Of a stretch of 35,960 nt of DNA, positions 2 to 35,707 are shown in pieces. How positions within the stretch are numbered: position 1 is the first letter of the stretch; the number at the start of each line of letters is the position of its first letter. Made by a program: the position numbers and the translations under genes. Origin of the DNA: an uncultured Caulobacterales bacterium (lineage in GTDB: Bacteria > Pseudomonadota > Alphaproteobacteria > Caulobacterales > Caulobacteraceae); assembly GCA_903851655.1 (NCBI GenBank), contig CAINOV010000053.1:1-35960 (forward strand). The letters run 5' to 3'. The notes below the pieces were generated by a model. The model worked only from the letters and a program-made list of their open reading frames with translations. It ran no database searches and had not been told where the DNA came from.

Positions 2-304
2 GAGGCGAGCAAGCCCAACGTGGCCAAGGCCATCACCGTTGAAGCCACTCCGGAGCAGGCCGCGGCCATCTCCCTGGCCCAGTCGGTCGGCTCGGTCACT
101 CTGGTGCTGCGCAAGCCCCACGACACCACCGAAGCGCAGCGCCGCGCCATCACCCTGTCGAACATGAGCAGCGGTGAGCCGCCCCCCGCGCCCCACGCGG
201 CCCGCATGTCCCACCGGGCGTCCACCGTGACGCCCCCCGCAACGCCGCAGGTCCGCGTCGTCCGCGGCGTCGAGACCACCAGCTACCCGGCGACGGGCGC
301 GTGA
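2..304 (+). CDS. cpaB: Flp pilus assembly protein CpaB (RcpC), C-terminal part only
   Basis: This is an open frame running in from the left edge; the GTG at 20 in the ORF track is internal. The visible part matches the end of CpaB/RcpC, with the 'ITVEATPEQAAAISLAQSVGSVTLVLR' type segment in which a TPEQA helix is followed by a strand ending in LRK. A proline- and alanine-rich tail follows. CpaB is a periplasmic, membrane-anchored component of the Tad secretion system that works with the secretin. The next gene, the CpaC secretin, follows in the same direction, which supports the call. The N-terminus and SAF-type domain lie outside the window, so completeness cannot be judged. Confidence 0.8.
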   Translation, partial: EASKPNVAKAITVEATPEQAAAISLAQSVGSVTLVLRKPHDTTEAQRRAITLSNMSSGEPPPAPHAARMSHRASTVTPPATPQVRVVRGVETTSYPATGA

Positions 305-369
305 GGCCCCGTCAGACGCGCCCTGCTCCCATCGGTCGAATGACCCCGTCATCCAAGGAAAGAGCCGAG

Positions 370-1815
370 ATGGCACACGCAAGCAAGATCACGATCAAGG
401 CCCTGGCTACCGCCGCCATCGCCGCCGCCCTGATGCTGCAGCCGGTGGGTCGCACCGCGGCCCACGCTGCGGAGGCGGAGGCCGCCGCCGCCCAGACGCG
501 GTCGGACGTGTCGGTCACCGTCGGCAAGTCCACGGTCGTCGAGCTGCCGGCCAATTATGCGGACCTGATGATCGCGGACCAGAAGGTCGCCGACGTGCTG
601 CCGCTGGGACCCCACTCCATCTATGTGGTCGGCCACACGCTGGGCGCCACGTCGCTGATGGTCTACGGACCCGGCAAGCACCTGATCGCCGCCTTCGACG
701 TGGGCGTGGTCGCCGACGCGGACGGCCTGAAGAAGCGCCTGAGCGAGGTCGTGCCCAACGAGAAGACCGTATCGGTCCGGACCGCCAACCAGTCGATCGT
801 CCTGTCCGGCGTCGTCGGCGGCGCCAGCGCCATGCAGCAGATCCTCGCCCTCGCCGAGTCCTATGCGCCGGGCAAGGTGATCAACATGATGACGGTCGAG
901 GGCTCGCAACAGGTGATGATGTCGGTTCGCTTCGTGGAGATGAAGCGGACCGTCGCCAAGGAACTGGACCTGAACGTCCAGTCGCGGCTCAACGCCAACG
1001 GCAAGTCGCCGTTCAACTTCATCACCGGCGACCAGCTGAACGGCAACACCAACCTGCTCCAGAGCCTGTTCGGCGCCGGCTCGGCCCGGCTGAGCCGCGG
1101 CGCGGGCGCCGTGAACGTGGTGTTTGACGCCCTCGAGACCAAGGGCCTCGTCAAGACCCTCGCCGAACCGAACCTGGTGGCCATGTCCGGCGACACGGCC
1201 AGCTTCCTGGCCGGCGGCGAATTCCCGATCCCGGTGCAGCAGTCCTCCGGCTCCGGCGGGTCTGCGCCGACGATCACCGTCCAGTTCAAGCAGTTCGGCG
1301 TATCGCTGGCCTTCACGCCCACCATCCTGCAGGACGGCCTGATCAACCTGGTGGTGAAGCCGGAAGTATCGGAAATCGACCCGACCACCTCGGTGACCGT
1401 GGGTTCGATCCAGGTTCCGGGTCTGAAGGTCCGCCGGGCCAACACCACGGTGGAGCTGCGCGACGGGGAGTCCTTCACCATCGCCGGCCTGCTGCAGGAC
1501 CACTACAACGCCCAGATCCGCCAGTACCCCTTCATCGGCGACGTGCCGGTGCTGGGCGCCCTGTTCCGCTCCAACGGCTTCCAGCGCGACGAGACCGAAC
1601 TGGTGATCGTCGTCACCGCCCGCACGGTCGTGGCCCATCGCGGCCCGACGGCGACTCCGGCGGACCGCTTCACCCCGCCGTCCGATCTGGAACTGTTCCT
1701 GCTGGGCAATCAGCAGGCGACGAAGACGGGCAACGAAGCCCTCGACCGCGTGCTGATCGGCGTCGACCCCACCAAGGGCGGCATCGACGGACCCCATGGC
1801 CATGTCATTTACTGA
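370..1815 (+). CDS. cpaC: Tad pilus outer-membrane secretin CpaC (RcpA)
   Basis: This is the outer-membrane secretin through which the Flp/Tad pilus fibre leaves the cell. The protein has a signal peptide (about residues 1-35), an N-terminal pilus/secretin-associated domain (about 45-115), a BON-like segment and a C-terminal secretin domain. The secretin domain carries the family signature near its end, 'VPVLGALFRS' followed by 'TELVIVVTARTV'. I chose the ATG at 370 (481 aa) over the track GTG at 301 because an AAGGAAAGAG ribosome-binding site lies just upstream and it places the hydrophobic signal at the N-terminus; 301 would add 23 residues overlapping cpaB. The gene sits between cpaB and the CpaD-like lipoprotein in the usual cpa order. 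The length is normal for CpaC. Confidence 0.93.
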   Translation: MAHASKITIKALATAAIAAALMLQPVGRTAAHAAEAEAAAAQTRSDVSVTVGKSTVVELPANYADLMIADQKVADVLPLGPHSIYVVGHTLGATSLMVYGPGKHLIAAFDVGVVADADGLKKRLSEVVPNEKTVSVRTANQSIVLSGVVGGASAMQQILALAESYAPGKVINMMTVEGSQQVMMSVRFVEMKRTVAKELDLNVQSRLNANGKSPFNFITGDQLNGNTNLLQSLFGAGSARLSRGAGAVNVVFDALETKGLVKTLAEPNLVAMSGDTASFLAGGEFPIPVQQSSGSGGSAPTITVQFKQFGVSLAFTPTILQDGLINLVVKPEVSEIDPTTSVTVGSIQVPGLKVRRANTTVELRDGESFTIAGLLQDHYNAQIRQYPFIGDVPVLGALFRSNGFQRDETELVIVVTARTVVAHRGPTATPADRFTPPSDLELFLLGNQQATKTGNEALDRVLIGVDPTKGGIDGPHGHVIY

Positions 1816-1825
1816 GGAGGCGATC

Positions 1826-2143
1826 ATGAACGGATCCAACCGTAACACCCTGACGACAGTGATCGTCATGGCCGCAGCCCTGGGCGCAGGCCTGGGACTG
1901 GCCGGCTGCGCCAGCCCGCACCTGGGCGCCGACTTCGGCCAGGCCGTGCGCCAGGACATCGCCGCCCAGGTGGCCAATCCCGACGCCAGGTTCTCAGGCG
2001 TGATCGCGCCGGGCTCCAACCCCTCCCGCGTGGCCGCCGCCCAGGACCGCTACGCCAAGGGCAAGGTCATCCAGCCGTCGAGCCAGGTTGCGGCGACGTC
2101 CGTGGCCGCCGCGCCCAGCTCGTCGTCGGGCCTCGTTCAGTAA
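1826..2143 (+). CDS. Short CpaD-like pilus lipoprotein
   Basis: A 105-aa lipoprotein starts at the ATG at 1826, preceded by GAGGAGG; the track start at 1796 is inside cpaC. The signal ends in the lipobox LAGC (Cys near residue 28). The mature part carries the arrangement seen in the C-terminal half of CpaD pilus lipoproteins: a 'DFGQAVRQDIAAQVANPDA' segment, then an 'R.AAAQDRYAKGK' segment. Typical CpaD proteins are about twice as long, so this one lacks the N-terminal domain. Its place between the secretin and cpaE is the canonical cpaD position. It most likely works as a secretin-associated outer-membrane lipoprotein, but the shortened form leaves the exact role open. Confidence 0.72.
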   Translation: MNGSNRNTLTTVIVMAAALGAGLGLAGCASPHLGADFGQAVRQDIAAQVANPDARFSGVIAPGSNPSRVAAAQDRYAKGKVIQPSSQVAATSVAAAPSSSSGLVQ

Positions 2144-2246
2144 ACCGTGTGGCGCCACCGGGGTCGGTGCGGGCTGGGCTACGGCCTGAACATTGCAAGT
2201 TCCCCAAATAGGCGTGTCCATTTGGATCAACTGAGGGAGCCGTCCG

Positions 2247-3461
2247 GTGTCAGTCATCAGAAGAATGGATAGCGACGTGTCGGAAACCGCCCAACAGATC
2301 CCAGCGAGCCCTCCGTACGAGATCGGCGTCGTCGAGGGCACGGGCGCCAGCGACACCATGCTGATCTCGGTCGCCGCGCACATTCCCACGGCCCGCTTCC
2401 GGGTGGTCTCCCTCGAAACGCTCGGCGCCGGCGGCCACGGCCTCGACGCCGTGATCGTGCCGGGCAGTCTGGGCGCGCGGGTCGACGCCCTGCTGACCGA
2501 AGCCTCGGGCGACCTGCGGATCATCGTGATCCTGGACGATCCCAGCGTCGCCAACAGCCGCCGCCTTCTGTCCCTCGGCGCGGCGGACATCCTCGCCGCC
2601 CCGGTCACCGAGCCGGCCCTGACCCTGAGCCTCGAGCGGATCATGCGCGCCGCGGCGCCGGCGGCGGCGCGGCCGCGCAGCGACGGCGCCGTGGTCGCCC
2701 TGCTGAAGGCCGGCGGCGGGGTCGGTGCCACCTTCCTCGCAACCCAGATGGCCGCCGGGCTGGGCCGACAGGACCCGGGCAAGGTGTGCATCGCCGACCT
2801 GGACATCCAGTTCGGCGTGGTCAGCGACTATCTGGACGCCGACCAGTCCTTCACCGTCGCCGACATCATCGGCAACGCCGCCGCGTTCAGCGAGGCCTCG
2901 TTCTCGTCGGCCCTGGCCGAACACAAGTCCGGCTGCCGGATCCTCAGCGCGCCCAAGGACGTGACCCCGCTGGAGAGCCTGACCACCGCCCATATCGAGA
3001 CCATTGTCGGCGGACTGCGTCGGACCTTCTCCACCACCCTGCTCGACCTGCCGCCCGCCTGGACCCTGTGGAGCTTCCGGGCCCTGCAGATGGCGGACCG
3101 GATCGTGCTGGTGACCCAGCTCAGCGTGCCGCACATGCAGCTGGTCAAGCGCCAGCTCCGGGTGCTTTCCGCCCAGAAGCTGGACCACAAGCCGATCCAC
3201 CTCGTCCTCAACGCCGTGTCGGCCGAGCAGCTGGCCGCCCTGCCGGTGAAGGTCGCCGAGAAGGCGATTGGACGGACCTTTGACCTTGTGATCCCCGAGG
3301 ACCGCCGGACCGCCGGCCTCGCCACCAATCAGGGCATCGAGCTGAACGAAGCCAAAAGCACGTCCAAGCTCGGCGCCGGAATCAGCCAGTTGGCGGCGCT
3401 GGCCGTTACCGGAAACCTCGCTGCGCCCGCAAGCAGCGGCCTCAAACTCAAATTCTGGTGA
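2247..3461 (+). CDS. cpaE: Pilus assembly ATPase-like protein CpaE (TadZ)
   Basis: CpaE/TadZ proteins localise the Tad machine in the cytoplasm and at the pole. Residues 24-135 look like a degenerate receiver domain (strands 'EIGVV', 'DAVIVPGS', 'RIIVILDD'), and about 148-380 form a ParA/MinD-like domain. The nucleotide loop reads KAGGGVGAT (154-162), so the usual final lysine of the deviant Walker A motif is alanine. The 'ADLDIQFG' motif and a later 'LLDLPP' strand are intact. The GTG start at 2247 has GAGGGAG eight nt upstream; the ATG at 2265 has no good site. The gene ends by overlapping cpaF (GTGA). Atypical ATP loops are known in TadZ proteins, so the family call is safe while ATPase activity is doubtful. 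Confidence 0.9.
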   Translation: MSVIRRMDSDVSETAQQIPASPPYEIGVVEGTGASDTMLISVAAHIPTARFRVVSLETLGAGGHGLDAVIVPGSLGARVDALLTEASGDLRIIVILDDPSVANSRRLLSLGAADILAAPVTEPALTLSLERIMRAAAPAAARPRSDGAVVALLKAGGGVGATFLATQMAAGLGRQDPGKVCIADLDIQFGVVSDYLDADQSFTVADIIGNAAAFSEASFSSALAEHKSGCRILSAPKDVTPLESLTTAHIETIVGGLRRTFSTTLLDLPPAWTLWSFRALQMADRIVLVTQLSVPHMQLVKRQLRVLSAQKLDHKPIHLVLNAVSAEQLAALPVKVAEKAIGRTFDLVIPEDRRTAGLATNQGIELNEAKSTSKLGAGISQLAALAVTGNLAAPASSGLKLKFW

Positions 3462-15217: not shown

Positions 15218-15233
15218 GCCGGCTCAGCGCGCG
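15208..15233. terminator. Perfect 26-bp palindrome spanning two convergent stop codons
   Basis: CGCGCGCTGAGCC is followed directly by its exact reverse complement GGCTCAGCGCGCG. It contains the TGA of the membrane protein gene (15215-15217) and the TGA of lacI on the other strand (15224-15226). The genes are six bp apart. It could form a hairpin in both transcripts and act as a bidirectional terminator or 3' end stabiliser, but no T-tract is present. Confidence 0.55.
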
Positions 15234-16258
15234 ACGGTCGACTGGCGGATGACCAGCTGCGGCGGCAGGGTCACGCCGTCCGTGCTCTCCCCGTCCAGCC
15301 GTCGGAACAGCTGGTCGACCATCAGCTTCGCACCATGGGCGAGATCCTGGCGCACCGTGGTCAGGGGCGGATTCGAATGCGAGGCGACCTCGGCGTCGTC
15401 AAAGCCCACCACCGCCACGTCCTCCGGCACCCGCCGACCGGCCCGGCGCAGCACCTGCAGCGCCGACAGGGCGATGACGTCGGAGGCGGCGAAGATGGCG
15501 TCCACATCCGGGCTTGCCGCAAGCAGCCGCTCCGCCGCGGCCTCCGCCTGCTGCGGGCTGAAGGCGGCGGGCATGTCGAGGCGCGCATTCACCTCGAGCC
15601 CGGCGGCGCGGCAGGCGGCCAGATAGCCCTGGTGCCGCTGGTGGATCTCCGGCGGGGAGGCGTCGCCCAGGAAGGCGATCCGTCGCCGGCCGATGGAGAT
15701 CAGGTGTTCGGTGGCCAGTCGCCCGCCGGCCTCGTTGTCCAGCCCGACCACGCAGTATTGCTGGTCCGGCAGGTGCGCGCCCCACACCACCAGGGGGCGA
15801 TAGACCTGGCCGGCGTCGTTCAGCGCCGCGTGCTGGTCGCTCTGGCCGATGACCACCATGCCGTCGGTGCGGTGGGCCTTGATCAGCTCCCGCAGCCAGC
15901 CCGGCTTGGGCGGCGCGACCTTGGAGATCAGGATCTGGTAGCCCCGCAGGCTGATCTCGTCGACCATGTGCCCGAGCATCTGCTGGAAGAACGGATCGGA
16001 GATCAGCTGGGCGGTGATGGCGCCCAGGGGAAACACCACGCCGATCGTGTTGGTCCGCTGCAGCCGCAGCCCCCGGGCCAGGGGATTGATCACATAGCCG
16101 TTGGCGTCGGCGATCTCTATGATCATCTCGCGGGTGGCCTCCTGGATCAGGGGGCTTCCCGCCAGGGCGCGCGAGACGGTGGAGGTGGACACGCCGCACA
16201 GCCGCGCGATGTCCGACATCTTGAGGCGTTTGAGCTCTGTACCTGCGTCAATACCCAT
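15224..16258 (-). CDS. LacI-family transcriptional regulator of the sucrose-type module
   Basis: A 344-aa repressor has an N-terminal LacI helix-turn-helix ('MSDIARLCGVSTSTVSRALAG', residues 14-34), a hinge region and a periplasmic-binding-protein-like effector domain with 'NTIGVVFPLG' and 'DAIFAASDVIALSALQVLRRAG'. It is divergent from the MFS sugar transporter gene, with an operator-like repeat in the shared 117-bp region, so it probably represses that operon and responds to a sugar. The ATG at 16258 has no ribosome-binding site. However, a TTGACA -35 and a 17-bp spaced TAGTGC place the likely transcription start at this ATG, favouring a leaderless message. An alternative start is Met14. Confidence 0.9.
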   Translation of the reverse strand: MGIDAGTELKRLKMSDIARLCGVSTSTVSRALAGSPLIQEATREMIIEIADANGYVINPLARGLRLQRTNTIGVVFPLGAITAQLISDPFFQQMLGHMVDEISLRGYQILISKVAPPKPGWLRELIKAHRTDGMVVIGQSDQHAALNDAGQVYRPLVVWGAHLPDQQYCVVGLDNEAGGRLATEHLISIGRRRIAFLGDASPPEIHQRHQGYLAACRAAGLEVNARLDMPAAFSPQQAEAAAERLLAASPDVDAIFAASDVIALSALQVLRRAGRRVPEDVAVVGFDDAEVASHSNPPLTTVRQDLAHGAKLMVDQLFRRLDGESTDGVTLPPQLVIRQSTVAR

Positions 16259-16264
16259 GATTGA

Positions 16265-16293
16265 GCACTAGATGCGAGCCACAGGCCTGTCAA
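16265..16293 (-). promoter_or_regulatory. Predicted lacI promoter, leaderless
   Basis: On the minus strand TTGACA (16293-16288) is followed by a 17-nt spacer and TAGTGC (16270-16265). The -35 is a perfect match and the -10 is weak. The expected transcription start falls on the A of the lacI ATG at 16258, which fits the absence of a ribosome-binding site. A perfect palindrome ACAGGCCTGT (16281-16290) overlaps the -35 and may be an autoregulatory site. Confidence 0.45.
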
Positions 16294-16323
16294 CCCAGAG
16301 GGGAAGGCGTCCAAATTACCCTC

Positions 16324-16339
16324 TTGCAAACGATTGTAA
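16324..16339. promoter_or_regulatory. Candidate LacI operator
   Basis: TTGCAAAC-GATTGTAA is a 16-bp imperfect inverted repeat (6 of 8 positions pair) centred on CG, the usual geometry of LacI-family operators. It lies between lacI and the MFS gene and overlaps the predicted -35 of the MFS promoter, which suits repression by blocking RNA polymerase. Confidence 0.55.
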
Positions 16340-16362
16340 AAGCGTCGTCCATCCGCAATAAT
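16334..16362 (+). promoter_or_regulatory. Predicted promoter of the MFS-GH68 operon
   Basis: TTGTAA (16334-16339) and AATAAT (16357-16362) are separated by 17 bp. The start point would be near 16369, giving a very short leader before the ATG at 16376. The -35 hexamer lies inside the candidate operator. Confidence 0.4.
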
Positions 16363-16375
16363 CACGGGGAACAAG

Positions 16376-17719
16376 ATGAGCCGTCCAACGGCCGACGGGA
16401 GGACCCCCCTGCCAGACGTCAAGCCACGCCTGTCGATCCTGCGCCTTCTGGAGATGAATCTGGGCTTTCTCGGCCTGCAGTTCAGCTTCGGTCTGCAGCA
16501 GGGCAACATGGGCCCGATCTACAGCTATCTGGGCGCCCATGAGGCGGACCTGCCGATCCTGCAGCTGGCGGGACCGATGACTGGCCTGCTGATCCAGCCC
16601 CTGGTGGGCGCCCTGTCCGACCGGACCCTGTCGCCCTGGGGCCGGCGGGCGCCCTATTTCATCGCCGGCGCGGTGCTGTGCTCGCTGGGCCTGCTGGCCA
16701 TGCCGTTCAGCAACAGCCTGCTGATGGCGGCGAGCCTGCTGTGGATCCTCGACGCCGGCAACAACACCACCATGGAGCCCTACCGCGCCTATGTCAGCGA
16801 CCGGCTGAACACCGACCAGCAGGGGGCGGGGTTCCTGATCCAGGCCGCCTTTACCGGTCTTGCGCAGATGCTGGCCTTCCTGACCCCCTCGCTGCTGGTG
16901 GGGGTGCTGCATGTGGACCTCAACGCCGTGGACGCCCACGGCATTCCCCAGACCACCCACATCGTGTTCCTGGCCGGCGCGGTGCTGTCGCTGGCGACCA
17001 TCCTGTGGTCCGTGCTGCGGGTGCGGGAGCTGCCGCTGGGCGAGGCCGAGGCTGCGGCGATCCGCGCCCTGCCCCGGTCCCTGGCCGCCACCCTGCGCGA
17101 GATCTTCGAGGCCATCCGCGACATGCCGCAGGCCATGCGCCGGCTGGCGGTGATGAGCCTTTTCCAGTGGTACGGCATGGCCGCCTACTGGGGCTATGTG
17201 ATCTATTCCATCGGCCGCTCTGTGTTCCATACCGCCGATCCCCACAGTCCGGGCTTTCGCGCGGCCGTGCTGGCCAACGGGGAGATGGCGGCCTTCTACA
17301 ACGCCGTCGCCTTCGTCGCCGCCTTCGCCCTGATCCCCGTCTCGAAGCGGTTCGGCGCGGGGCGGGTGCACGCGGCCTGCCTGGCGCTGGCCGGTCTGGG
17401 CGTCCTGGCGATCCCGGGGATCGCCCAGCGGGAGTGGCTGTTCCTGCCCGCCGTCGGCGTCGGCCTGGGATGGGCCAGCATCATGGGCAATCCCTATGTG
17501 GTGCTGGCCAACGCCATCCCCGCCGCGCGGACCGGGGTCTACATGGGCATCTTCAACATGATGATCGTCATCCCCATGCTGCTGATCGCCGCCACCCTGC
17601 CCTTCTATTACGGCCCGCTGATGGGCGGCGACCCGCGCAATGTGCTGCGCCTGTCTGGCGTCCTGCTGCTGGCGGCGGCGGTGGCGGCGCTGTGGATCCC
17701 GTCGAAGGCCAAGGCATGA
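16376..17719 (+). CDS. MFS sugar transporter, SLC45/sucrose-symporter-like
   Basis: This is a 12-helix inner-membrane transporter of 447 aa. It carries the MFS loop 2-3 motif as 'GALSDRTLSPWGRRAPYF' and a preceding 'GPMTGLLIQPLVG' helix, the pattern of SLC45-like sucrose and disaccharide transporters such as Xanthomonas SuxC and plant SUT proteins. The C-terminal half retains the matching 'NPYVVLANAIPAARTGVYMGIFNM' segment. The ATG at 16376 is preceded by GGGGAAC. It diverges from the LacI gene and overlaps the GH68 gene by four nt (ATGA), so the two are almost certainly one operon. Sucrose as substrate is inferred from family and from the linked GH68 enzyme. Confidence 0.88.
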   Translation: MSRPTADGRTPLPDVKPRLSILRLLEMNLGFLGLQFSFGLQQGNMGPIYSYLGAHEADLPILQLAGPMTGLLIQPLVGALSDRTLSPWGRRAPYFIAGAVLCSLGLLAMPFSNSLLMAASLLWILDAGNNTTMEPYRAYVSDRLNTDQQGAGFLIQAAFTGLAQMLAFLTPSLLVGVLHVDLNAVDAHGIPQTTHIVFLAGAVLSLATILWSVLRVRELPLGEAEAAAIRALPRSLAATLREIFEAIRDMPQAMRRLAVMSLFQWYGMAAYWGYVIYSIGRSVFHTADPHSPGFRAAVLANGEMAAFYNAVAFVAAFALIPVSKRFGAGRVHAACLALAGLGVLAIPGIAQREWLFLPAVGVGLGWASIMGNPYVVLANAIPAARTGVYMGIFNMMIVIPMLLIAATLPFYYGPLMGGDPRNVLRLSGVLLLAAAVAALWIPSKAKA

Positions 17720-18864
17720 CCCTGAGCGAACGTCCCCGTCCCGGCCGGCTGCAGCCGCCGCGTCCCGCCGACTGGCGGGCCGAGCACGTGGCGCGGATCG
17801 ACCTCGCCACGGCGCCGCGGATCCCCCGGGTGCGACCGGCCGACGTCCGCCGGATCAGCACCGCGCAGGACGCCTGGGACGCCTGGCCGGTCCAGGACCT
17901 GTCCGGCCAACCCGCCCGGATCGGCGGCGGGGCCCTGTGGATGACCCTGGCCGCCCCGGTGGCGGCGGATCCGAACCTGCGACACCACAAGGCCCGCATC
18001 CACCTGGTCCGCCCCACGGCGGACGGCGGCTGGCGCGACCTGGGGCCGGCCATGCCCGACGGGTTCAGCCCCGGCGCCTGCGAGTGGTCCGGCTGTGCGG
18101 TCCTGCGTCCGGAGACGGGTCGGGTGGAGCTGCACTTCACCGCCACCGGCCGCCGCGGCCAGCCGTTCCGCACGGAACAGCGCCTGTTCGTCGCCTCCGC
18201 CCGCCCGGAGGTCCGGGGGGACGACGTCCGGCTGACGGACTGGAGCGCGCCGACCCAGACCGTCGATCCGCAGGCGGACTGGCGCCAGCCCGCCCTCGGC
18301 GCGGACCCGGCGCCGGGCTTCATCCACGCCCTGCGGGATCCGGCCCTGTTCCATGACCCGGACGACGGCGCGGACTATCTGGTCTACGCCGCCTCCCTGG
18401 CGGGCCCGCAGACCCTGCACCACGGGGCCATCGGCCTTGCGGCGGCGGACGGCGCCGGCGGCTGGCGCGATCTGGGTCCGCTGGTCCGCGCGCCGGGCCT
18501 GAACCACGAGCTGGAGCGGCCGCACCTGCTGCGGACGGCGGACGGCGTCTATCTGTTCTGGTGCACCCAGTCGAAGATGTTCGCCCCGGGCGGCCCCGTG
18601 GGACCGACCGGTCTCTACGGCATGTTCGCGCCCGGGCTGTCCGGCCCCTATGCGCCGATCAACGGCACGGGACTAGTGGCGGCCAATCCGCCGGACGCCC
18701 CGGCCCAGACCTACGCCTGGTGGGTGACCGGCGCTCTGGACGCCTACGGTTTCGTCGATGTGGTCGCCGACGCGCCGCCCGGTGATCGCCTGGGCGTCTT
18801 CGCCGGCGGCTTTGCGCCCCCCTTCCGGATCAGGCTTGACGGGCCGACCAGCCGGATGGCGTGA
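17716..18864 (+). CDS. Glycoside hydrolase family 68 protein (levansucrase/invertase type), no signal peptide
   Basis: GH68 enzymes split sucrose and release or transfer fructose. The three catalytic carboxylates are visible: Asp55 in 'WDAWP' (nucleophile), Asp208 in 'RDP' (transition-state stabiliser) and Glu267 in 'ELERPH' (acid/base). Other family blocks are 'EWSGCAV' (123-129), 'GLYGMF' and 'AQTYAWWV'. The 382-aa protein begins at the ATG overlapping the MFS stop. Its N-terminus is hydrophilic and proline/arginine-rich with no export signal, so it probably works in the cytoplasm on imported sucrose, acting mainly as a hydrolase. Whether it also makes fructans cannot be read from sequence. 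The track ORF start at 16678 is a shadow through the transporter. Confidence 0.9.
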   Translation: MTLSERPRPGRLQPPRPADWRAEHVARIDLATAPRIPRVRPADVRRISTAQDAWDAWPVQDLSGQPARIGGGALWMTLAAPVAADPNLRHHKARIHLVRPTADGGWRDLGPAMPDGFSPGACEWSGCAVLRPETGRVELHFTATGRRGQPFRTEQRLFVASARPEVRGDDVRLTDWSAPTQTVDPQADWRQPALGADPAPGFIHALRDPALFHDPDDGADYLVYAASLAGPQTLHHGAIGLAAADGAGGWRDLGPLVRAPGLNHELERPHLLRTADGVYLFWCTQSKMFAPGGPVGPTGLYGMFAPGLSGPYAPINGTGLVAANPPDAPAQTYAWWVTGALDAYGFVDVVADAPPGDRLGVFAGGFAPPFRIRLDGPTSRMA

Positions 18865-18899
18865 TCCGGCGCAAGGTCAGGCGCGTCAGGGGGGCCGGG

Positions 18900-19946
18900 A
18901 TGGATCGACGACTGTTTCTCGGCGCCGGCTCCGCTGCCTCCGCCGCCTCCTTCGCCGCGGCCACCGCGCCCCGGCCGCCGGCCGCACCCCTCCGGTCCCT
19001 GGTCCGGGCCCGGGCGCTGAAGCCCGGCGACCGGGTCGGGGTGGTGGACCTGTCGACGCCCCTCTACGACCCGATGATCGGCGAGCGCATCCGCAGCCTG
19101 TTCGCGGCCCTCGAGCTGACGCCGGTGTTCGCGCCGCATCTGCTGGCCCGGACGCGGGAGATCGCCGCCTCCCGGGCGGAGCGGGTCGCCGACCTGCATG
19201 ACCTGTTCGTCGATCCGACCATCAAGGGAGTGTTCTGCGCCCGCGGCGGCTACGGGGTCAGCGAGATCGTCGCCATGCTGGACTACGAGGCGATCCGCGC
19301 CCACCCGAAGGTGTTCCTGGGCTTCAGCGACATCACCCTGCTGCACCTGGCGATCCGCCGGCAGGCGGGACTGGTCACCTTCCACGGGCACATGCCGGGG
19401 CAGAGCGCGTTTGGCCCGTTTTCCCTGGAGGCCCTGCGCCGGGCCGTGTTCTCCACCACGCCGCTCGGCCTGCTTCCGGCGCCGGACGAGCCCAATCCCG
19501 TGCGGCCGCAATACCCCCTGCGCACGATCGTCCCCGGCCGGGCCACCGGGCCGCTGGTGGGCGGCAACCTGTCCCTGGTGATCGCCGCCATGGGAACGCC
19601 GTGGGAGATCGACACCGCCGGCGCCATCCTGTTCCTGGAGGACGTGGACGAGAACGCCTACGCCATCGGCCGGATGCTCTGGCAGCTGCGCCACGCCGGC
19701 AAGCTGGCCGCGGCGGCGGGGGTGGTGATCGGCGCCTGCGCGAACTGCGAGAAGATCACGGACGCCTCGCCCTACAGCCTGAACGAACATCTGGACATGG
19801 TGCTGAAGGACCTGGGGATTCCCGTCCTGTCCGGCCTCGTGCTCGGCCATACGGACGACCAGCTGACCGTGCCCCTGGGCGTGGCCGCCACCCTGGACGC
19901 GACCCAGCGCACCCTGACGGTGCTCGAGCCCGGCCTGATCGCCTGA
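18900..19946 (+). CDS. S66 peptidase (LD-carboxypeptidase family), exported
   Basis: LD-carboxypeptidases remove the terminal D-residue of peptidoglycan tetrapeptides during recycling; other S66 members act on modified peptides. The protein has 'RGGYGVSEIV', the nucleophile elbow 'GFSDIT' with the likely catalytic Ser, the 'LFLEDVDE' block with the catalytic Glu, and 'GLVLGHTDDQLTVPLG' with the catalytic His, so the triad is complete. I chose the ATG at 18900 (348 aa) because of the GGGGGCCGGG run just upstream; the GTG at 18861 overlaps the GH68 stop. This N-terminus, MDRRLFLGAGSAAS, looks like a Tat or Sec export signal, whereas classical LdcA is cytoplasmic. It follows GH68 after 35 bp and may be co-transcribed. 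Confidence 0.86.
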   Translation: MDRRLFLGAGSAASAASFAAATAPRPPAAPLRSLVRARALKPGDRVGVVDLSTPLYDPMIGERIRSLFAALELTPVFAPHLLARTREIAASRAERVADLHDLFVDPTIKGVFCARGGYGVSEIVAMLDYEAIRAHPKVFLGFSDITLLHLAIRRQAGLVTFHGHMPGQSAFGPFSLEALRRAVFSTTPLGLLPAPDEPNPVRPQYPLRTIVPGRATGPLVGGNLSLVIAAMGTPWEIDTAGAILFLEDVDENAYAIGRMLWQLRHAGKLAAAAGVVIGACANCEKITDASPYSLNEHLDMVLKDLGIPVLSGLVLGHTDDQLTVPLGVAATLDATQRTLTVLEPGLIA

Positions 19947-20883: not shown

Positions 20884-21369
20884 TCAGTCCGCCAGCAGTT
20901 CGACGTCGCCGACCAGTTCGGCCTCGAACGCCTCGGCGGAGATCTGGCGGCGGCCGACCAGCACGCTGCAGTCCACCAGGTCGCTGACATAGGCGCCCGA
21001 CGCGCCGGACCACCACCGCTGGAACAGGGACCGGCGCTGGTGGCCCAGCACCACCAGATCGGCCTGCACCTCCCGGGCGAAGGCGCTGATCTGCACCGCC
21101 GGCTCCCCGCTGACCAGACGGGTGACGGGCTTCAGGCCCAGCTGCTCCGACACCTGTCGGGCGTGCTCCAGCAGGCCGCGATACCCTTCGACCTGCGCGC
21201 CGACATAGTCCACATAAAGGGTGTCGGCCAGCGCCACCCGATCCGTATCGGGCACGACCGAGAGGATGAAGACCTGCGCCTGGAACCGCTTGGCCAGGAG
21301 CGCACCCTCACGAAGGGCGATCAGCCCTTCCTTGGTGCCGTCATAGGCAAGGACGATGCGTTCGTACAT
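20884..21369 (-). CDS. Universal stress protein (UspA family)
   Basis: This 161-aa cytoplasmic protein has a single Usp domain: 'ERIVLAYDGTKEGLIALREGALLAKRF' at the N-terminus and 'DLVVLGHQRRSLFQRWWSGASG' near residue 110-130. The ATP-binding consensus GxxGx9G(S/T) is not met, since GHQR replaces GxxG, so nucleotide binding is uncertain. The ATG at 21369 has GGGGAG upstream; the 727-aa track ORF reads through the neighbouring phosphatase gene in another frame. It lies 122 bp downstream of the phosphatase-SPOR gene on the same strand. Confidence 0.88.
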   Translation of the reverse strand: MYERIVLAYDGTKEGLIALREGALLAKRFQAQVFILSVVPDTDRVALADTLYVDYVGAQVEGYRGLLEHARQVSEQLGLKPVTRLVSGEPAVQISAFAREVQADLVVLGHQRRSLFQRWWSGASGAYVSDLVDCSVLVGRRQISAEAFEAELVGDVELLAD

Positions 21370-21491: not shown

Positions 21492-22937
21492 TCAGGGATG
21501 CGCGGCGGGCGCAGGATCCCGAGGACCGGCCCCCGCCACTTCCGCGGCGGTGGTGACCCAGCAGGCCCGGCTCTGGGCCGCCAGCCGCGCGCAGAACGCC
21601 TGAGCCGCCCCGCGGTCGGCGAAGCCGGAGACGAAGGCGCGGACTAGGACCGGAGACCCGGCGGCGGCGGCGGCGGCCCGGGTCTCGACCGGCTTGTCCT
21701 GCAGGTCCTCGGGAAGAGCGCCGCGCAGCTCCGCCTCGAAGGCGCGGGCGTCGGCGTCCGAGGCGAAGGCCCCCACCTCCGCCACGGGTCGGAGATCCGG
21801 CGGCGGGACGGACGGCGGCGGGGCGACGGTCTCGGCGGGGCGGGCCGCGGGCGCTGCGGCCGGCGCCGGGCCGGGGCCTCGGCTGCGGTTGAGCAACTGC
21901 AGCGTCTCCAGACGGATCACGGCGGGGTCGGCGACGGGCGGGGACCTTCGCACGATCAGCAGGGACACTGCCCCCATCGCAAGGGCGAGCAGCGCGGCGA
22001 ACACCGCCGCCCGCGCGCCGTCGCGGGCCCACCTGCGCGGCGGCCGACGGTCTGTCGCCGGCGCCGCCAGCCCCGCCATCGACCCGGCGGTCGGGTCGCC
22101 GGGTTCCGCCGGGGGCGCCGGCGACATCTCGAAACCGCCGCCGACGGTCTCCCAGGGCGCCACCAGGATTCGCCGCTCCGCGCCGGAGCGACTGACCTTG
22201 ATCAGGCTGCAGGCCACGTCCTCCAGCCGCAGGATCGACAGGGCGCCGGTGGCGTAGGCGCCCGTGTCGATGCCGATCCGCCAGCGGCTCATCACCGGGA
22301 TGTGGTGGATCGAGTGACCATGGACGACGGTCAGGCCGTGACGGGGCGTCTCGTCGGTCAGGGCGCGCCGCCACAGCATGTCGTCGGTGGTCTGCGCCTC
22401 CAGCGGCGCGTCCGGGTCCAGCCCCGCATGCACAAAGACATAGTCGCCGAACACCACGAACAGCTGGGTGCGACGCAGGAAGCGGATATGCTCCGCCGGT
22501 GCGGCCGCGGCGATCAGCCCGGCCAGGTCGGCGTCCGGGTCCATGGCGAACCGCTCGCCCGACCCGTGGTAATAGGAGTTGAGGGTCTCGACCCCGCCGA
22601 ACTCCAGCCAGCGATGGCTGTGCGTCCGCCCGTCGACCAGGTCCAGCAACTCCTGCTCGTGATTTCCGCGCAGGAAGACGAAGCCCCGTCCCTCCTCGCT
22701 GTCGGCCAGGGCGGCCAGGCGCGCCAGCACCCCCCGGGAGTCCGGTCCGCGGTCGATATAGTCGCCCAGCATGACCGCGGCGAAGGACTTGCCCGCGGTC
22801 CACGCCTCCCGCCGGATGCGGAACAGCTCCTCCAGGGCAGGCTCCAGCAGATCCAGCCGACCATGGATGTCGCCCACGGCGCAGACAACCACGCCGGGCG
22901 GGCAGCGCGCTGCGGAATGGACGGGGGAATCGGTCAC
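21492..22937 (-). CDS. PPP-type metallophosphatase - transmembrane helix - SPOR domain fusion
   Basis: The 481-aa protein begins with a serine/threonine protein phosphatase-like (PPP, ApaH/PrpA class) domain. It has 'GDIHGR' (22-27), 'GDYIDRGPDS' (58-67), 'GNHE' (91-94), 'HAGLD' (170-174) and 'HGHS' (206-209), so every metal ligand block is present. A linker is followed by one hydrophobic helix (about 309-329), a proline/alanine-rich stretch and a C-terminal domain (about 385-463) with two 'GAFASDADARAFEAEL' / 'SGFADRGAAQAFCARL' repeats typical of SPOR peptidoglycan-binding domains. The topology would put the phosphatase in the cytoplasm and SPOR in the periplasm, hinting at septal localisation. 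The GTG start at 22937 lacks a clear ribosome-binding site. Substrate unknown. Confidence 0.82.
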   Translation of the reverse strand: MTDSPVHSAARCPPGVVVCAVGDIHGRLDLLEPALEELFRIRREAWTAGKSFAAVMLGDYIDRGPDSRGVLARLAALADSEEGRGFVFLRGNHEQELLDLVDGRTHSHRWLEFGGVETLNSYYHGSGERFAMDPDADLAGLIAAAAPAEHIRFLRRTQLFVVFGDYVFVHAGLDPDAPLEAQTTDDMLWRRALTDETPRHGLTVVHGHSIHHIPVMSRWRIGIDTGAYATGALSILRLEDVACSLIKVSRSGAERRILVAPWETVGGGFEMSPAPPAEPGDPTAGSMAGLAAPATDRRPPRRWARDGARAAVFAALLALAMGAVSLLIVRRSPPVADPAVIRLETLQLLNRSRGPGPAPAAAPAARPAETVAPPPSVPPPDLRPVAEVGAFASDADARAFEAELRGALPEDLQDKPVETRAAAAAAGSPVLVRAFVSGFADRGAAQAFCARLAAQSRACWVTTAAEVAGAGPRDPAPAAHP

Positions 22938-34111: not shown

Positions 34112-35707
34112 ATGCTTGATGCAAACCTCAAGGCCCAGCTGAAGAGCTACATGGCCAACATCGTGTCGCCGGTGGAACTGGTGGCCACCCTGTCCGACGA
34201 CAGCCGCTCCGCCGAGATGCGCGCTCTGCTCGAGGACATCGCCGCCCAGTGCGACAAGGTCTCGGTGAACCTCGACGGGGCCGACGCGCGCACCCCCTCC
34301 TTCGCCATCAACCGGATCGGCGGGCCCGTCGGCGTGCGCTTCGCCGGCCTGCCCATGGGGCACGAATTCACCTCCCTGGTGCTGGCCCTGCTGCAGGTGG
34401 GCGGACACCCGCCCCGGGTGACCCCAGAGCTGGCCGAGCAGATCAGGGCCCTCGAGGGCGACTATCATTTCGAGACCTATTTCTCCCAGTCCTGCCAGAA
34501 CTGCCCGGACGTGGTGCAGGCGCTGAACGTGATGAGCGTGATCAATCCGCGCATCCGCCACGTGGCCATCGACGGCGCCTTCTTCCAGGACGAGGTCACC
34601 GCCCGCGGGATCATGGCGGTCCCCACCGTCCTGCTGAACGGCGAGGTCTTCGCCCAGGGCCGCATGGAGCTGGAGCAGATCCTGGCCAAGCTGGACACCG
34701 GCGCCGCCGACCGCGCCGCCGAGCGGCTGAAGTCGGCCGCCCCCTTCGACGTGCTGATTGTCGGCGGCGGCCCGGCAGGCGCCGCGGCGGCGGTCTACGC
34801 CGCCCGCAAGGGCATCCGCACCGGCATCGCCGCGGAGCGGTTCGGCGGCCAGGTGCTGGACACCATGGGCATCGAGAACTTCATCTCCGTCTCCCACACC
34901 GAAGGCCCCAAGCTGGTCGGCGACCTCGAGCGCCACGTGCGCGAGAACGAGGTGGAGATCATCAACCTGCAGAAGGCCCGCAAGCTGATCCCCGCGGCCA
35001 CCGAAGGCGGCCTGATCGGGGTGGAGCTGGAAAGCGGCGCGACGCTCCGCGCCCGCTCCGTCATCCTGTCCACCGGCGCCCGGTGGCGGCACATGAACGT
35101 GCCGGGCGAGACGGAATACCGCAACCGCGGTGTCGCCTACTGCCCGCACTGCGACGGCCCCCTGTTCAAGGGCAAGCGCGTGGCGGTGATCGGCGGCGGC
35201 AACAGCGGCGTCGAGGCGGCCATCGACCTGGCCGGCCTGGTGGCCCATGTGACCCTGATCGAGTTCGACTCCAGGCTCCGCGCCGACGCCGTGCTGCAGC
35301 GCAAGCTGGCCAGCCTGCCCAACGTGACGGTGCTGACCTCCGCCCAGACCACCGAGGTGCTGGGGGACGGCGCCAAGGTCACGGGCCTGGTCTGGCGCAA
35401 CCGCGAGACCGACGCGACCGCGACGATCGAGCTGGAGGGGATCTTCGTGCAGATCGGCCTCGTGCCCAATACGGAATGGCTGAAGGGCGACCTGGCCCTC
35501 TCCCCGCGGGGCGAGATCGAGATCGACGCCCGGGGGGAGACCTCGGTCCCCGGGGTGTTCGCCGCCGGCGACGCCACCACCACGCCGTTTAAGCAGATCA
35601 TCATCGCCGCCGGCGAAGGCGCCCGCGCCGCCCTGTCGGCCTTCGACTACCTGATCCGGCTGGCGCCCGTGGACAAGCCGGCCGACGCCGAGGCCGAGGC
35701 CGCCTGA
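34112..35707 (+). CDS. ahpF: Alkyl hydroperoxide reductase subunit F (NADH:AhpC oxidoreductase)
   Basis: AhpF is the flavoprotein disulfide reductase that passes electrons from NADH to AhpC. The 531-aa protein has the N-terminal double-thioredoxin-fold domain with the active disulfide Cys128-Cys131 in '[10 protein letters not shown]', the FAD motif GGGPAG (218-223), the second disulfide Cys344-Cys347 in 'CPHCDGP', the NAD motif GGGNSG (361-366) and the C-terminal FAD block '[15 protein letters not shown]'. All are at the positions expected for the family. A CCGGAGA site precedes the ATG. It shares a tight convergent junction with modA. Confidence 0.97.

Follow-up and report, generated by a model that had tools for sequence, protein, structure and literature searches.

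Can a protein phosphatase be tied to the cell envelope through a wall-binding fold? The wall-reading phospho-signaling proteins known so far are mostly kinases, and the question is raised here by one gene in a 35,960-nucleotide stretch of DNA from an uncultured Caulobacterales bacterium (contig CAINOV010000053.1), referred to here as the window. The first-pass annotation had described this gene as a PPP-type catalytic domain joined by one membrane helix to a SPOR domain, and all three parts were confirmed on the minus strand by Pfam (both domains above cut-off), hydropathy, and AF2 and Foldseek. The Pfam Metallophos match covers residues 18-211 (E 1.7e-11, 45.4 bits; cut-off 21.5) and the SPOR match (PF05036) residues 388-462 (E 2.7e-7, 31.3 bits; cut-off 21); both domains exceed the Pfam cut-offs in all carriers, the SPOR domain with 31.3-36 bits across three fusions (Table 1). 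Our best explanation, which we give about an even chance of being right, is an inner-membrane PPP phosphatase that is anchored to the envelope by its SPOR domain and likely acts on phosphoproteins near the envelope. Such a membrane-spanning phosphatase with a wall-binding fold would newly tie dephosphorylation to envelope state.

Table 1. Features of the fusion gene and its neighbor, in positions of the window.
Feature	Position	Strand	Remarks
Whole gene, PPP phosphatase-TM-SPOR fusion	21492..22937	-	GTG start, 481 aa; its relatives P0002 and G020 gene are 66% and 62% identical
PPP catalytic domain, residues 14-250	22188..22898	-	Pfam Metallophos; PHROG NinI-like Ser/Thr phosphatase; dN/dS ~0.14
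GDIHG metal-binding motif, residues 22-26	22860..22874	-	D23 and H25 invariant across the 3 fusions
GDYIDRG motif, residues 58-64	22746..22766	-	
GNHE motif, residues 91-94	22656..22667	-	
Predicted transmembrane helix, residues 306-330, N-terminus inside	21948..22022	-	Hydropathy, flanking charge, AF2 helix
RLETLQL, residues 342-348, invariant stretch right after the helix, predicted periplasmic	21894..21914	-	Identical in 3/3 fusions, between poorly conserved linkers
SPOR domain (predicted fold), residues 383-466	21540..21791	-	Pfam; AF2 pLDDT 84.7; Foldseek to RlpA/CwlC/DedD SPOR
Glu387, where SPOR domains nearly always have the Gln that contacts glycan	21777..21779	-	PMC6895207
Universal stress protein (Usp) gene	20884..21369	-	Pfam Usp E 1.1e-22; 122-bp gap downstream of the fusion

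The full fusion was found in 3 of 149 sampled genomes of the family, all belonging to the window's genus: the window's own genome (G000), G045 (66% identical) and G020 (62%), the latter two being uncultured Caulobacterales MAGs according to their public records. The other three of the six genomes of the genus (G033, G054 and G062) are without it. Since only some members of a single genus carry it, the fusion probably reflects an adjustment specific to this lineage and not a mechanism at the core of division. Beyond the family, there was no further carrier among the matches listed in overlapping order (398), class (385) and phylum (399) samples, and no plasmid match (n = 72,556) spanned 80% of the fusion protein; the architecture was thus seen only in this genus in searches that were weighted to the phosphatase and might overlook a rare or highly divergent fusion in other lineages. 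The earlier suggestion that the architecture is undescribed was borne out as far as the open-access literature goes, where we found no description of a Metallophos-TM-SPOR protein, although one may still exist. We regard the fusion as genuine, rare and, as far as we found, undescribed; it recombines two families that are both known, and it is restricted to one genus.

Nei-Gojobori counts between the G000 and G045 genes gave a dN/dS of ~0.14 for the PPP domain, ~0.4 for the SPOR domain, ~0.3 for the membrane helix taken with the 18 residues that follow it, and 0.8-0.96 for both linkers. The PPP and SPOR parts are constrained and the linkers drift near neutrality, a pattern that argues for a functional gene and against an artifact.

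The protein has one strong hydrophobic stretch (best 19-residue window at 311, mean hydropathy 2.65; runner-up 1.37), and the hydropathy scan showed no signal-peptide-like stretch elsewhere in the fusion. The charges on the N-terminal and C-terminal sides of the helix are +4/+1 and +5/+1 in two of the fusions and +2/+2 in the third. Because the positive charge is greater N-terminal of the helix in two of the three proteins, the phosphatase should be cytoplasmic and the SPOR domain periplasmic. An AF2 model of the full chain, built on only 4 sequences, was poor overall (pLDDT 42), but residues 306-330 came out as a helix and the elements of 384-463 in a SPOR-like order. The predicted topology, a single membrane helix with the phosphatase on its cytoplasmic side as first proposed, agrees with hydropathy, with the charge in two of the three proteins and with the AF2 helix.

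It has been reported that the septal wall is the usual destination of SPOR domains and that Gln270 of RlpA touches both NAM and NAG of denuded glycan (PMC6895207). The same residue is Q251 in FtsN and Q351 in DamX, where it matters for septal localization, and its substitution in FtsN lowers septal localization (PMC6895207). In the fusion, the SPOR fragment modeled alone by AF2 reached a pLDDT of 84.7, and four of its five best Foldseek matches in the PDB were SPOR structures (RlpA 6i05 and 6i09, CwlC and DedD); the RlpA TM-score was 0.75 by target, and the E-values of the SPOR matches were weak (0.008-0.05). Although a phmmer search of the SPOR domain against PDB sequences returned no relevant match, the fold comparison did, and the predicted SPOR fold of the C-terminal segment is borne out by the model and by its RlpA, CwlC and DedD matches.

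The glycan-contacting Gln is replaced by Glu387 in all three fusions, which therefore lack the Gln that marks binders of denuded glycan. By contrast, Gln occupies this position in each of the 25 further SPOR domains examined from the genus and in 28 of 29 others across the Alphaproteobacteria (the remaining one has His), that is, in 53 of 54, a figure somewhat biased to typical domains because the class sample consisted of top-scoring matches. As placed by sequence alignment alone, Phe391 (RlpA F274; HMM position 12), the small Ala390 and the basic Arg420 are kept, and the basic Arg433 is His in G045. The best reading of this sequence pattern is a SPOR-fold domain whose glycan specificity may be altered or lost, and the natural Gln-to-Glu exchange offers a ready test of how far SPOR targeting depends on one residue.

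How much glycan recognition would survive this exchange separates two further readings. Somewhat unlikely, in our estimate, is that the domain no longer binds denuded glycan and would act simply as an anchor in the periplasm or as a module that binds proteins; the consistent Glu387 against Gln in 53 of 54 domains elsewhere would fit such a role, as would the carboxylate that may be placed opposite the lactyl carboxylate contacted by Gln (judging from PMC6895207), but purifying selection on the SPOR domain (dN/dS ~0.4) and the retention of most remaining contact positions argue for more than that. The first-pass annotation had instead proposed a septum-localized protein phosphatase, with the SPOR domain on denuded glycan concentrating the enzyme at the division site, where it would act on division or cell-cycle proteins, so that wall state would be coupled to dephosphorylation of division proteins. 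The architecture and the predicted topology stood up, and the SPOR fold, the retained Phe391, Ala390, Arg420 and Arg433 (His in G045), and the general septal destination of SPOR domains (PMC6895207) are consistent with that proposal. However, the main conserved contact, the septal-binding Gln, is Glu in 3/3 fusions, two of the three carriers have no detectable Hanks-type kinase, and the fusion is missing from half of the genus (3/6 genomes), which is not expected of a core division factor. Because this SPOR domain has lost the near-universal Gln that grips the septal wall sugar, a septal role is not to be taken for granted; the mechanism is possible, less likely than had been supposed, and in our judgment unlikely.

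The kinase content of the carriers bears on substrates more generally. The window's genome encodes four Hanks-type kinases (PF00069), and no PF00069 kinase was detectable in G045 or G020. It is therefore unlikely that the fusion has a conserved role in opposing a Hanks-type kinase, and a partner Hanks kinase as a conserved feature of the fusion is unsupported. An HprK-like gene is shared by the three carriers, and non-carriers have one as well; possible substrates are His/Asp, Tyr or other phosphoproteins. The four kinases of the window's genome lie on its contigs C282 (4540-10442), C72 and C287, one with a HAMP match and one with TPR-like matches; the five other genomes of the genus have none, and the four could be a recent acquisition or MAG contamination.

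The catalytic domain itself belongs to the PPP superfamily, with GDIHG, GDYIDRG, GNHE, H170 and H208 all intact. Residues 20-247, the whole catalytic domain, match PHROG 246, the NinI-like Ser/Thr phosphatases (E 1.2e-38), and among solved structures, Rhizobiales-like phosphatase 2 and PP2A-like enzymes are nearest in sequence. Stand-alone alphaproteobacterial PPP metallophosphoesterases (~240-300 aa) and NinI-like phage phosphatases are 37-45% identical to it and share all PPP motifs but, unlike the fusion, have neither a TM helix nor a SPOR domain. Judged by sequence, the enzyme is probably a PPP phosphatase acting on phosphoproteins. We consider it quite improbable that it is an Ap4A-type nucleotide hydrolase tethered to the envelope with an alarmone as substrate. 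ApaH is the best NCBIfam match and a Usp gene adjoins the fusion, but the equivalog cut-offs of ApaH, PphA and PphB are all missed (39.7/176, 29.9/326 and 21.2/332 bits), the first by far, and the NinI-like protein phosphatase match is far stronger and covers the full domain, with a Rhizobiales-like phosphatase and PP2A-like enzymes as the nearest structures.

In the explanation that we prefer, the N-terminal PPP metallophosphatase would lie on the cytoplasmic side, the helix would span the inner membrane in a single pass, a disordered Pro/Ala-rich linker would cross the periplasm, and the SPOR-fold domain would anchor the protein to the cell envelope. Its position would be set by changed or weakened glycan recognition or by a protein partner, and the enzyme would dephosphorylate phosphoproteins of the cytoplasm close to the envelope, which are probably not Hanks-kinase targets; this localization and substrate, and any signaling, are what we infer. 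The Pfam domains, the NinI-like profile, the charge around the helix in two of three proteins, the predicted SPOR fold, the restriction of constraint to the domains and the precedent of DamX all support it, and the Glu in place of Gln, the lack of a detectable Hanks kinase in two of three carriers, ApaH as the top NCBIfam match and the equal charges of the third protein count against it. E. coli DamX has a folded cytoplasmic domain, one TM, a linker and a C-terminal periplasmic SPOR domain, like the fusion (PMC7642682); its cytoplasmic domain is not a PPP phosphatase, and it keeps the Gln (Q351; PMC6895207) where the fusion has Glu. FtsN of Caulobacterales likewise combines a single TM, a Pro/Ala linker and a C-terminal SPOR domain, and the C-terminal part of the fusion matches its NCBIfam model weakly, but falls far under the cut-off (NF050813, 19.7 of 300 bits), and the window's genome has a separate SPOR protein (L001), taken for FtsN, with the Gln. 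PASTA-domain Ser/Thr kinases of the PrkC/PknB type join an extracellular wall-binding module through one TM to a cytoplasmic phospho-signaling enzyme. The working layout is similar, with a phosphatase for the kinase and SPOR for PASTA, and there is no common descent. It would be a long shot that the fusion is a wall-controlled counterpart of these kinases, in which the altered SPOR domain reads a wall feature other than denuded glycan and the invariant RLETLQL relays it through the helix to the phosphatase in the cytoplasm.

The weakest alternative, an assembly or gene-model artifact merging two genes, draws on the carriers all being MAGs or fragmented genomes and on the G020 gene being cut at two contig ends, but we reject it, given that the frame is continuous in G000 and in the independent MAG G045 (CAIQUG010000262.1), that the sequences of the two G020 halves overlap (CAISEP010000002.1), and that the domains are constrained where the linkers drift. 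Homologs found outside the genus, in the family, order, class and phylum samples, are stand-alone phosphatases; the homolog ORFs examined have at most 198 residues after GNHE, whereas the two complete fusions have 387 and 377. In a tree of catalytic domains, those of the fusions group together with full support (100/100) on a long stem, and the stand-alone copies of the genus fall elsewhere. This tree does not support recent duplication of a stand-alone phosphatase from within the genus, and we rejected that origin along with recent copying from another of the genome's SPOR genes, none of which matched closely (best E 0.004).

Each of the three carriers has the Usp gene as a direct neighbor of the fusion (loci L010 and L041 besides the window), on the same strand and followed by an SDR gene on the opposite strand. 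Since the carriers are such close relatives, this synteny says little on function. The SDR homolog of G033 stands in another context, without Usp or phosphatase. A murein-recycling LD-carboxypeptidase (peptidase S66) whose N-terminus is Tat-like is encoded near the fusion at 18861-19946 (+), and likewise in G020 (L041). Elsewhere in the window are a sucrose-use-like cluster of a LacI regulator, an MFS transporter and a GH68 levansucrase/invertase (15224-18864), a secretin with an AAA_31 ATPase, a combination also seen in Tad/Cpa pilus loci (301-3461, +), and an AhpF-like reductase (34112-35707, +). An AhpF homolog also occurs on G020 contig C2, at least ~2 kb away from the fusion half, so that the wider region is partly syntenic. 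Carriers have 6-7 SPOR proteins, compared with 2-4 in the non-carriers of the genus, and two adjacent SPOR-domain genes (L002 and L007) occur on contig C91 (1338-3531) of the window's genome, with like pairs on G020 contig C16 and G045 contig C79.
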